64,000 nt of DNA from Jannaschia faecimaris (GTDB lineage Bacteria; Pseudomonadota; Alphaproteobacteria; Rhodobacterales; Rhodobacteraceae): contig NZ_FNPX01000007.1 of assembly GCF_900107415.1 (NCBI RefSeq), positions 62,001-126,000 on the forward strand. The letters are read 5' to 3'. Below the pieces are notes generated by a model. That model saw nothing but the letters and a program-made list of their open reading frames with translations, searched no databases and was not told the origin of the DNA. Below are positions 58,826-64,000 of this stretch, piece after piece (the stretch's first letter is position 1; each line of letters starts with the position of its first letter). The translations under genes were made by a program, and so were the position numbers.

Positions 58826-59439
58826 ATGGTCGCCCGTTTGGGGTCATTGCTCGGCCTACGTAGGAATTAGCGCCGATAGGTGGTCAAATTTAGGCCCGGA
58901 GAGTCACATTTCTGCCCTATTTGGGGGTGCGAGCATCGGCGTATCTTTTTGCCGTCTTCTGACCTTTTGGTAGGTACGTCGCGGAGCGCTTTGGGCATAC
59001 GCGGTGCAGATAACGTCCGCACTCGCCTGCCGCCGCTTGGTGGAACGCTAAGAGTTCGATGACTACTTAAGTCTAGTTTTCCACTTCGGATCTGAATCAT
59101 TAGGCTGGTGATCCCGTCGGCGCTGCATCAACGGCAGTCCGGCTCCATGTTTGCCCGCCCTAGATCCCGCAAGTGCGGTGATCCTCACAGTCTTACGCGC
59201 TGGCCGAGGTTCGCCCGTCATCCTTGCGTCGTGGGACTGCAGTAATTCAGAAATGAACGCGATGATATGAGGTCGCTAAGATGCGACTGCGCCGAAAATA
59301 TCATTTGTGGCGTGGGATTTGGCTTGCAATTGTGGCCCCCCTGGTCGAGCGCCTGCCACCCGTGATTGGCCATGCTTGGGAGTAGTTGCTGCATTGCATC
59401 CGAAAGTATGGTAAGAACCGCGCAGCAGTGGAGGAAATC
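58826..59439 (+). other. Gap without a supported gene
   Basis: These 614 bases lie between the Hint gene and a small open frame. Open frames on both strands have no good start, no family motif and mixed codon composition, so none is called. The first 60 bases presumably hold the Hint promoter. No repeat or attachment site was recognised. Confidence 0.4.
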
Positions 59440-59628
59440 ATGACTAAACACATCGTGGATCGCACGCGCGCACGCAGCGGTGCGGCCAAGTTCCAGCAAT
59501 ATGTTCGGATTGATCTTGCTGATAAGCCAGGTGCGCAATTGAAGATACTTCAGAAGCGACCGCGCAGCACTGATTCACATGCCCGTGCAGTGCGTTTTGC
59601 TGAAATTGAGCGACGCAAGGTTGAGTGA
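59440..59628 (+). CDS. Small basic hypothetical protein
   Basis: A 62-residue open frame with an excellent ribosome-binding site (TGGAGGAAATC before ATG). The product is basic and soluble (MTKHIVDRTRARSGAAKFQQ then RIDLADKPG), with no known domain. Nothing around it suggests a function; the DNA after it is AT-rich and gene-poor. Confidence 0.45.
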   Translation: MTKHIVDRTRARSGAAKFQQYVRIDLADKPGAQLKILQKRPRSTDSHARAVRFAEIERRKVE

Positions 59629-59920
59629 ATGAAGGCGGTTATCAATTGAATTTTCAGCCGGGATGCCGTCTCCCTGAATCTTTGCTATTTTCCTGTAATA
59701 GGGTGTCGATTGCCTGAGTCGGGTGACAGCTCGGGGTATTGTGTGCGGTCGGTTCGCGTACATGTTTGCCGGTCAGTTTATGTTGACCATGCTTATTCGC
59801 GCTTTGATTGCGCCGAAGGTAGTCGGCGCATCAATGGCCTGCCTTTTCGCTTGGAATGTTTGGTTGAATCATTTTTTGATGTAGATGAGTAACTCTTCCC
59901 ACCTACGAGCGATCGGAAAA

Positions 59921-60300
59921 TCACCTTAATTTTTGAGGTTCAGGAATAGCCGGTTTGGTCTGCAACCATTTGACCGCTGATACCGGAAGTTCTGGTGAAG
60001 CAGTATGGGGTAAAAATTCCGCCAGATGCCAACTTCTTTTGCTGAGAAAGAATTCCGGGACATTCTTCATTTTAAGATAATCTTGAATCTTTTATCAAGT
60101 CGGCCATAAGCGTATTTCCATCACTTATATGGAAGTAATTGAATTCGAATATTATTATCTTCAAATTCGCAAATGGTTTGTTGACGGGACTCTTGGAAAA
60201 TGCAGCTTCAGTGAAACTTTGCCATATATGCTCCTCCGATCATGGGACGTGTCTTATGTTTGAACTGGCCTTCTTCCGCGGAATGCTTTCAAACTGAATG
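59921..60300 (-). pseudogene. AT-rich gene remnant with one stop and one frameshift
   Basis: On the minus strand a continuous protein-like chain is seen only if two lesions are bridged. Upstream codons (RKKASSNIRHVP) meet a TGA at 60240-60242; then WQSFTEAAFSKSPVNKPF, NLKIIIFEFNYFHISDGN and LMADLIK follow. A one-base slip in AAAA near 60085 joins this to IQDYLKMKNVPEFFLSKR and LAEFLPHTASPELPVSAV, ending at a TGA at 59921. The upper limit is approximate. The piece with IIIFEFN recalls methyltransferase (FkbM-like) C-termini but I cannot name the family. The region is much more AT-rich than its surroundings. Confidence 0.42.
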
Positions 60301-60495
60301 AATTCCCGCACAGCGGACCTCGGTCGCGAGGGCATTGAGCACCACCTGTCGAGATTGGTTCGGGGCATCTGCGCGATCAGTTTGGTCGAGGGGGACGACA
60401 TGCTGCGGCGGGTTCCGACGTCCGTGCCTGGTGATATCCAATAACGTGAGCTATGTCGTTCACTTGGTCATGACGGGGTCAAAAATACAGCGCGT

Positions 60496-61062: not shown

Positions 61063-61207
61063 TCGGGCTCCATTTGTTTACTGATTTGTCAACTTATAAC
61101 TGCGTGATGTCCGGACCTCTATGAGAAATAATCTCATAAAAACAGTTTTATAAGGTAATTCTCAGGTTCTGGCTGGGAATCTTTTTAGCACGACGAGCTT
61201 GACATGA

Positions 61208-61253
61208 GTTACCGATCGGTTCACCTTTTATCAAAGGTGTACAGATCGGTGAC
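61208..61253. promoter_or_regulatory. 46-bp imperfect palindrome, probable TetR operator
   Basis: The two 23-base halves (GTTACCGATCGGTTCACCTT... and its partner) match at 19 of 23 positions when one is reverse-complemented, centred between 61230 and 61231. It holds two nested inverted elements: outer ACCGATC/GATCGGT and inner CACCTTT/AAAGGTG. This size fits binding of two TetR dimers or one extended site. It lies 146 bases before the tetR start and 46 bases before the hydrolase ATG, so it can block both promoters. Confidence 0.7.
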
Positions 61254-61298
61254 TCACTTGATCTTTAGTAACGCCCTCATCTCGAAGGGAAGTTGATC

Positions 61299-62178: not shown

Positions 62179-62643
62179 ATGATCCGCCCACCGGTACCGC
62201 CATTCTCCGAAATCACAGCAGCGCAAAAAGTTCGGGCCGCCGAAGACGCGTGGAATGCTCGTGCGCCCCAAGCCGTGGCGCAGGCTTACACCGAGGACAG
62301 CCAGTGGCGTAACAGGTCCGAGTTCCTGTCAGGGCGTGCCGAGATCGAGGCATTCCTGACGCGCAAATGGGAGCGCGAAAAGGAATACCGTCTGATCAAG
62401 GAGCTTTGGGCGTGGGCGGACTTTCGGATTGCGGTGCGCTTTGCCTATGAATGGCGCGACGAGGGGCACCAGTGGTTTCGCGCCTACGGCAACGAAAACT
62501 GGGAATTCGCCGCCGATGGCCTCATGCGGTGCAGGATCGCCAGCATCAACGATCAGGCAATTCCGACCGCGTCACGACTGTTTCATTGGCCCTTGGGTCG
62601 CCGCCCGGACGACCATCCGGGGCTTACTGACCTGAACCTCTGA
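62179..62643 (+). CDS. DUF1348 (NTF2-like) protein
   Basis: A 154-residue protein of the DUF1348/NTF2-like fold. The family stretches are [77 protein letters not shown], and [16 protein letters not shown]. These proteins form cone-shaped barrels; a ligand or function is not known. AAAGGAAACGCC precedes the ATG. It lies in the TetR-linked set with the hydrolase and the FMN protein. Confidence 0.85.
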
Positions 62644-62656
62644 CAAGGAGACTGAC

Positions 62657-63286
62657 ATGCCAAGGGCCTTTGCCGAAATCGCCTTCACCGAACATGTCCG
62701 CGCCCAGCAGACCCGATTGGGGTCGGCACAGGGATATGCGAAATTCCTTGCGGCCGATGCTGTTGGCGGCAATGCGCTCGGTCCTGACGAGGCCGCCTTC
62801 ATCGAGGCGCGCGACGGGTTCTATCAGGCGACGGTTTCCGAGACAGGCTGGCCCTACTTGCAATTCCGGGGTGGTCCGATCGGGTTCCTGCGGGTCCTTG
62901 ATCCCCGGACCATCGCCTATGCTGATTACCGCGGGAACCGCCAGTATATCAGCCTGGGAAACCTTGCGGGTGACGGCCGGATATCCATAATTCTGATGGA
63001 CTATCCCAACCGCAGACGCCTCAAAATTTGGGGGCGTGTTCAGGTGGTCGAGGGGGAGGCGGTGGGCGACATCCTTACCCTGTTACATGATCCCGGCTAT
63101 GCTGGTCGGCCCGAACGCGTCATCGTTATCACGATCGAAGCGATCGACTGGAATTGTCCGTCGCACATACCGCAGCGCCTGACCCAAGCGGAACTGGAGC
63201 CGCATCTGTCGCAGATGCAAGAACAGATCTCAGACCTCACAATCGAAAACGCACGGCTGGCCGCATTAGTCGCAAACGCGTCATGA
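62657..63286 (+). CDS. Pyridoxamine 5'-phosphate oxidase-like FMN-binding protein
   Basis: A 209-residue flavoprotein of the split-barrel FMN-binding fold. The segments FYQATVSETGWPYLQFRGG and ISLGNLAGDGRISIILMDYPNRRRLKIWGRVQVVE match the FMN-binding and dimer strands of this superfamily. The C-terminal coiled coil (SQMQEQISDLTIENARLAALV) is common in this subfamily. The exact reaction is unknown. ACAAGGAGA precedes the ATG, 13 bases after the DUF1348 stop, so the two are co-transcribed. Confidence 0.85.
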   Translation: MPRAFAEIAFTEHVRAQQTRLGSAQGYAKFLAADAVGGNALGPDEAAFIEARDGFYQATVSETGWPYLQFRGGPIGFLRVLDPRTIAYADYRGNRQYISLGNLAGDGRISIILMDYPNRRRLKIWGRVQVVEGEAVGDILTLLHDPGYAGRPERVIVITIEAIDWNCPSHIPQRLTQAELEPHLSQMQEQISDLTIENARLAALVANAS

Positions 63287-63432
63287 ACCGTTCCTTCGAA
63301 CCAAGACCCAAACCATTAGGAGCGGACTATTTTGCAATGATGCCCTCCCCTAACATCGGTATTTAGACCAAGGCTTTCGTGGTATCGGTGGTCTTCGCGG
63401 CTGGCCTGCCAACCAGCGGCGAGGTTCGTGAT

Positions 63433-63630
63433 ATGTCATTGCCCGACCATGTTGCGTTCAAGACCGCCAGCATTGACGGAATTGACATCACTTACCGCAA
63501 AGGGGACGACTCATCGCAACCCACCGTACTTTTGCTGTACGGGTTCTCCAGTTCGTCACATAATTCTCGCAACCTAATCGTGCACTTTGCGCAAGACTAT
63601 CACGTCGTCGCGCCGGACGCCCCCGCGCGG
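63433..63630 (+). pseudogene. Alpha/beta hydrolase N-terminal fragment
   Basis: The first 65 residues match the start of a haloalkane dehalogenase/epoxide hydrolase-like protein: VAFKTASIDGIDITYRKGDD, then TVLLLYGFSSSSHNSRNLIV and DYHVVAPD. The usual oxyanion His of HGF is Tyr here. Similarity stops after APD, just before the nucleophile region, and the frame then runs through unrelated sequence to a stop at 63696. It is joined directly to a DUF305 fragment, so it cannot work. Confidence 0.72.
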
Positions 63631-63659
63631 GTGTCAGAGTCTCCCAGATCCGGATGTAG

Positions 63660-64000
63660 ATGGCACTCTACATGGGCGCGACAATGGCGATTGTAAGGCT
63701 CGCCTTCATGCTCGGGATGTACTCCAACCGGAAAGCCAACGTTGCGATCTTGGTGGGTGCGACAATTGCCTTTGTGATGAGTCTCTACCTCGTCCGGTCG
63801 CAAGATACGGTCGCTGATATCGCTTGGATGAAGGCGGTGATCCCACGCCATTCCATCGCGATCCTGACCAGTGAACGGGTCGATATTTCCGATGCGCGCG
63901 TCCGCGAACTTGCTGATGCGACCATCGAAGCGCAGCGCGGCGAGATAGCCGAAATGAAGCGATACATCGCCGATATTCAGGCCAACGGTGATGCACCGGC
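63660..64000 (+). pseudogene. DUF305 membrane protein, 5'-truncated and running off the right edge
   Basis: From ATG 63660 the frame encodes MALYMGATMAIVRLAFMLGM, a second hydrophobic helix (VAILVGATIAFVMSLYLV), and the DUF305 core MKAVIPRHSIAILTSERV with RVRELADATIEAQRGEIAEM. The usual first part is missing. Just before the ATG the same frame reads VRVSQIRM then TAG (63657-63659) where family members have Tyr, so the homology begins earlier than the ATG and is broken by a stop. The gene continues beyond the window. Confidence 0.68.

Follow-up and report, generated by a model that had tools for sequence, protein, structure and literature searches.

A large inverted repeat lies between a TetR-family regulator gene and a divergently transcribed hydrolase operon in Jannaschia faecimaris, and the locus raises the question of whether this repeat is one enlarged operator or a group of ordinary ones. 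The stretch of DNA that was analysed, termed the window, is 64,000 nucleotides in length. The original prediction described a 46-bp element at 61208-61253 in which 19 of 23 half-site positions pair, with nested inverted repeats, and proposed that two dimers of the adjacent TetR bind it cooperatively, control both divergent promoters and tightly repress a small regulon. The repeat itself was reproduced: the same 19 of 23 positions pair, rising to 22 of 26 when the element is widened to 61205-61256, and a repeat search returns arms of 24 nt that match at 88% with 4 nt between them. It is the best centre in the window and the only one with at least 17 of 23 pairs, while none of 60 simulated first-order Markov windows (0/60) reached 19 of 23.

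The nesting was also borne out, as the two halves of the palindrome carry direct copies at a distance of 30 bp, TACCGATCGGT and TACAGATCGGT. These copies belong to two predicted 18-bp boxes, O1 and O2, whose centres are 30 bp apart and which are separated by 12 bp without overlap. Within the window, five of nine palindromic pairs are formed in O1, four in O2 and six in O3, and many relatives have boxes that are better palindromes. O3 is a third copy of the box that had been overlooked; it sits next to the tetR gene, 13 bp upstream of its start codon, and its centre is 131 bp from that of O1. Judged by its make-up, the “46-bp element” is two separate predicted boxes added together and no single unit. 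The idea of one large operator was rejected, as its halves are separate boxes whose distance drifts in relatives. The features are collected in Table 1.

Table 1. Predicted operators, promoter elements and genes at the regulator locus (positions in the window).
Feature	Position	Strand	Basis
O1, predicted TetR box AGTTACCGATCGGTTCAC	61207..61224		Centre 61215.5; PWM 23.5; profile kept in relatives; own-genome core search
O2, predicted TetR box GTGTACAGATCGGTGACT	61237..61254		Centre 61245.5; PWM 18.5; relatives' profile; own-genome core search
O3, predicted TetR box GTTTACTGATTTGTCAAC	61076..61093		Centre 61084.5; PWM 19.0; O3-anchored profile of relatives
O3-O1 spacer	61094..61206		Length kept in relatives, sequence free
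Imperfect palindrome (O1 + O2 + flanks)	61205..61256		22/26 pairs
TTGACA, predicted -35 of operon promoter	61199..61204	+	O1-anchored profile
CACCTT, weak candidate -10 overlapping right half of O1	61222..61227	+	Conserved T at O1 +10; inference
TetR-family regulator, 188 aa	60496..61062	-	TetR_N, TetR_C_13
Isochorismatase-like cysteine hydrolase, 255 aa	61299..62066	+	Pfam Isochorismatase; likely signal peptide by eye
DUF1348 (NTF2/SnoaL-like) protein	62179..62643	+	Pfam
PNPOx-like protein	62657..63286	+	Pfam PNPOx_N

The names first given to the flanking genes are upheld by Pfam. The regulator carries just two Pfam domains, TetR_N (PF00440, 49.5 bits against a cut-off of 24) and TetR_C_13 (PF16925, 33.8 bits against a cut-off of 27), and the divergent genes match Isochorismatase, DUF1348 and PNPOx_N. 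The best NCBIfam match of the regulator is DicD/YjdC (NF047866); at 80 bits against a cut-off of 240, it is not a member of that family. In a sample of the genus, a match to the regulator at E 1e-30 was found in only one of 20 genomes, that of the window itself, and the locus therefore looks accessory in its own genus. Beside the regulator locus, some 1.4 kb (59000-60450) holds open reading frames of no more than 123 aa and is possibly decayed or inserted DNA. At 63379-63696 there is a short alpha/beta-hydrolase-like frame with a weak, partial Abhydrolase_1 match, from which a DUF305/CopM-like frame is entered (63660-64000, cut by the end of the window).

Relatives of the regulator were collected from samples of the family (24 of 198 genomes with a match at E 1e-20 or better), the class (41 of 385, loci being taken for the best), the order (43 of 390) and a second order (12 of 25), together with 12 further stretches and the best 80 of 215 confirmed loci on GTDB contigs. 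The window's own genome is counted among the family-, class- and order-sample matches, and one order-sample match with an internal stop (G845) was left out of the loci. Thirteen loci, L014-L026, were excluded before the box scan, since their TetR reached no more than 51% identity or, in L026, is a fragment. The scan covered 92 loci including the window, which were also those on which the box matrix (PWM) had been trained; three boxes were found in 80, two in seven, four in one, one in two and none in two. Three of the loci are duplicates. Among the 89 distinct loci, 77 have exactly three boxes, and 77 have O3 together with the O1-O2 pair, so that conserved boxes lie in the shared intergenic region as a palindromic operator of a TetR would. 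The consensus is approximately GTTTACCGATCGGTACAC, of which AC.GATC.GT is nearly invariant. When the matrix was held fixed and applied to 29 later, class-wide loci (L121-L149), at least one box appeared in all eight with a TetR 59-69% identical (L121-L128) and in five of the 21 more distant ones.

Among the 80 contig loci, the divergent genes are DUF1348 followed by PNPOx in 47; the hydrolase comes first in 13, and all three genes follow the order of the window in two of these. In eight of the 80, the divergent side has none of the three within 3.5 kb. Dozens of relatives thus have this box ahead of these genes, which supports the predicted assignment of the operator to the adjacent TetR. Where the TetR is about 51% identical or less, several loci carry ACAGACCTGTCTGT-type boxes instead. 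Six of these distant loci (L014, L015, L131, L132, L133 and L144), in which the TetR stands beside DUF1348 or PNPOx, have two such boxes each, spaced about 88-103 bp apart by eye. In these distant relatives the operator specificity appears to have changed and the targets to have stayed the same.

The positions of the boxes relative to the promoters suggest how they act. In the O1-anchored profile, 90-96% of the 68 non-redundant loci have the TTG of a -35 at positions -17 to -15. The T that is conserved at +10, followed by A/T at +11, suggests a -10 element that overlaps the right half of O1; a generic sigma-70 scan found no full promoter at this locus. In 61 loci aligned on O3, CAA at +30 to +32 (TTG on the other strand) is present in 75-82%, with ATA at +7 to +9, and these point to a predicted tetR promoter that overlies O3; the window itself has no obvious tetR -35. 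In L126, L127, L128 and L183, TTGAC lies at the left end of the O1 box, so operator and -35-like sequence share bases there. Given these promoter positions, O1 seems positioned to shut off the operon, and O3 to do the same for tetR. The proposed control of both divergent promoters therefore holds in part: O1 lies on the operon promoter, but tetR is served by a box of its own, O3, as a predicted autoregulatory site.

The model that follows is one in which O1 and O2 are tandem operators of the adjacent divergent TetR-family repressor and form, with O3, a three-operator control region that represses both the operon and tetR. Confidence in this prediction is high. A TetR dimer on O1 would cover the DNA just behind the operon -35 and block RNA polymerase. 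O2, 30 bp downstream, would act as a second block in what is probably the initially transcribed region, and O3 would let the repressor close its own promoter. A presumed ligand would free the repressor, and the hydrolase, DUF1348 and PNPOx-like proteins would be induced. Steric repression of both operon and regulator is thus very likely on this arrangement. The boxes may instead serve a different regulator. Tandem TetR boxes are by themselves ordinary.

The distance between O3 and O1 is less ordinary. Loci of less than 57% identity were removed ahead of one set of O1-O2 and O3-O1 counts and ahead of the count from O2 to the divergent genes. After the removal of spacers more than 60% alike, O3 and O1 stand 127-133 bp apart in 61 of the 68 non-redundant loci, and 126-134 bp apart in 70 of 86 loci of a larger set. 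This spacing is conserved from Rhodobacterales to other alphaproteobacterial lineages, with no such constraint on the spacer sequence. Gapped alignment of 800 spacer pairs from 79 loci (79 of the 80 trios, near relatives included and a 359-bp case left out) gave a median identity of 48.5% against 47.9% for shuffled sequence. In the 501 pairs whose likeness did not exceed chance, lengths differ by a median of 2 bp, and by no more than 3 bp in 74%. Between O2 and the first divergent gene that was recognised, lengths vary more, at 32-386 bp in 61 of 64 cases with three extremes; since 27 of the 64 fall at 116-126 bp, relatedness alone also preserves lengths in close kin. A tree of 98 TetR proteins places the standard spacing (75 rows) on either side of its midpoint root, and well supported branches force at least seven changes of spacing, with the bootstrap not fully settled. 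The rule stops short of the distant clade described above, as the spacings there are 88-103 bp.

Two loci, L067 and L122, have O3 farther from the start codon and nonetheless keep the boxes 128 bp apart, so the conserved unit seems to run from box to box; both were placed in the standard-spacing class for the tree and start-codon tests. Among loci of at least 57% identity, O1 lies 149-158 bp from the start codon in 68 of 83 with O3 as opposed to one of 10 without it (Fisher p 1.1e-5, uncorrected for relatedness). With a fragment (L026) dropped and L105 re-anchored, one of nine O3-less loci has the standard O1 position (p 4e-5, also uncorrected for relatedness). A distance constraint between the tetR-side and operon-side predicted operators is well supported. 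As the distance is fixed while the DNA between varies, a functional coupling of the two ends is suggested.

That the constraint is helical in nature is only suggested. Counted as events on the tree, there are nine departures from the standard spacing among loci with all three boxes (87, 119, 121, 121, 122, 111, 118, 78 and 96 bp), a clade with 86, 87 and 87 bp being taken as one event and L040 and L126 sharing a clade. None of the nine is more than 2.5 bp away from a whole number of turns relative to 130 bp (V-test p 0.006, Rayleigh p 0.047), with events and reference picked post hoc. The addition of L094 (359 bp) and L062 (145 bp, without O2 and 4.5 bp off) changes these values to 0.023 and 0.14, and 15 strict departures of up to 200 bp, unreduced to events, give a Rayleigh p of 0.087. 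The departures lean weakly towards whole helical turns.

The spacer is further marked by A/T tracts, which in the window lie, by eye, at about 61126-61132, 61136-61142, 61146-61153, 61157-61161 and 61179-61187. An inverted repeat at 61127-61160 was considered as a further operator and rejected, as it coincides with these tracts; over the same interval, the spacer profile of relatives has only A/T peaks and no other conserved sequence. The peaks in relatives fall at -85, -74, -64, -33 and -24 from O1. In 61 loci (spacings outside 126-134 bp left out), the A/T content has a 10.5-bp period that beats 1000 of 1000 rotations. This phasing recurs in seven loci outside the tract placement, and in 15 further such loci, four of which had been in the training of the box matrix, the value is 0.813 in phase, as opposed to 0.533 when displaced by half a turn. 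The window alone is not significant at 10.5 bp (p 0.16) and is stronger near 9.5-10 bp, and only 23% of the 61 loci pass the 95th percentile of their own shuffles. As single sequences mostly lack significance, the 10.5-bp signal belongs to the loci taken together.

One explanation, plausible if short of probable, is that the spacing of about 130 bp and the phased tracts serve the geometry of two back-to-back promoters, through UP elements, contacts of alpha-CTD or nucleoid proteins, or supercoiling coupling, with TetR only occluding locally. The tracts were followed in loci with shifted spacing or without O3, from which those below 57% identity had been removed. On a shift of spacing, the distal tracts keep their position relative to O3 and the tetR promoter (0.81, compared with 0.57 when offset by half a turn; nine loci with spacings of at least 105 bp), and the proximal tracts keep theirs relative to O1 and the operon promoter (0.80 compared with 0.44, 14 loci); in five loci of shorter spacing, the distal tracts are not tied to O3 (0.69 against 0.69). 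As each group follows its own promoter, the tracts behave as promoter elements. They also persist without O3, at 0.795 against 0.487 in 10 loci and, with the fragment dropped and one locus re-anchored, at 0.759 against 0.493 in nine (p 0.018). The tracts may thus be UP-like promoter elements held in one helical register by the fixed spacing. Against this explanation, the O3-less loci lose the distance (1/9 against 68/83), though the old promoter was possibly lost with the box. Also, 53 control promoters from the same loci do not have such phasing (power 0.002 against 0.287 at 10.5 bp); these were picked by consensus alone, and some may be false, which may blur the control.

A second explanation is that the repressor acts through a short DNA loop, in which dimers on O3 and on O1, with O2 helping, would meet across the 130-bp spacer of phased A/T tracts and thereby couple the tetR promoter with the operon promoter. 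This reading is offered tentatively. The A/T tracts lost weight as evidence for a loop, since they are retained in loci without O3 and each group goes with its own promoter. Operator and promoter positions move together, and their effects are therefore inseparable here. Short-range repression loops are known from lac and gal. Rco of pLS20, a tetramer, loops between two operators (PMC4207663), and condensation by Fur of H. pylori involves three operators (PMC5007355). The present locus is like these systems in that its promoter region has several predicted operators at defined distances, but those proteins act as tetramers or larger. Within the TetR family, looping by Mce3R is put forward by its authors as a suggestion (PMC11667970), and among the matches listed from the open-access literature there was no demonstrated DNA loop by a member of the family. 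Lac repressor readily formed loops in a poly(dA:dT)-rich DNA (PMC3795714); neither this paper nor PMC12825309 decides the looping question at this locus.

The cooperative operator originally proposed, in which the 46-bp palindrome is bound by two interacting dimers in the manner of QacR or CprB, is unlikely. The palindrome as a whole exceeds chance, and 61 of 68 loci have the centres of O1 and O2 at 28-34 bp from one another, so the distance is non-random. Over 85 loci of at least 57% identity, however, it spans 23-34 bp, a full helical turn, and the faces of the two boxes are not fixed; an obligatory dimer-dimer contact is therefore unsupported. L121 and L125 keep O3 and O1, and no O2 was found in them. 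QacR and CprB likewise place two TetR-family dimers on one DNA region, but there both occupy one site of 22-32 bp (PMC4150764), whereas here a 12-bp gap divides two 18-bp boxes at a drifting spacing, and the two predicted dimer sites do not make up one site in fixed register. Predicted sites for two dimers are thus supported, and a need for cooperativity is not. A close comparison is Tn10 tetR/tetA, where a divergent tetR and two palindromic intergenic operators, tetO1 and tetO2, with centres about 30 bp apart, repress both genes. Those operators are 15 bp each (PMC3511530) and are reported to give no indication of cooperativity (PMC3037858). The present locus differs in its predicted third operator, 131 bp off at the tetR start, and in its targets, which are enzymes in place of an efflux pump.

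That the palindrome acts as a hairpin in RNA or DNA, as an attenuator or a terminator, is highly improbable despite the 24-nt arms with 4 nt between them: the -35 position would put the transcript start downstream of O1 and leave the RNA without the left arm, each box is conserved singly while the joint centre moves with the O1-O2 distance, and a terminator scan names two other places and omits the palindrome. Rfam matches over 61193-61268 to two plant microRNA families (29.7 bits against a gathering score of 102, and 18 against 75) may be expected of a long hairpin and are probably a false signal from the long inverted repeat; the hairpin was dropped on the scan, these scores and the promoter position.

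As to the tandem O1/O2 and O3 control region, a search of the organism's own genome with a 14-base core pattern found 10 places, namely O1, O2 and eight single matches, compared with one for the reversed pattern. Six of the eight lie inside open reading frames and two between them, as called by the authors' own ORF finder, and just one, inside a frame, scores above PWM 12. This agrees with the small regulon that had been proposed, within a pattern that is blind to boxes as weak as O3, and other weak sites may therefore exist. A hint at what the operon does comes from a fungal DUF1348 gene, 71cR, which in Neurospora raised resistance to the photoactivated toxin cercosporin and whose disruption in Cercospora had no effect (PMC4608573). 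By analogy, a link of the operon to oxidative stress is a lead only. In the open-access literature that was searched, DUF1348 by itself matched two papers and no match joined DUF1348 with TetR, and a search for isochorismatase, TetR and SnoaL returned a fungal match only.

With this locus, DUF1348, a family of unknown function, gains a predicted operator motif and a predicted regulated operon. Looping and helical phasing are usually credited to tetrameric repressors. If true, the fixed-distance system would provide a natural test of looping and helical phasing by minimal TetR dimers.
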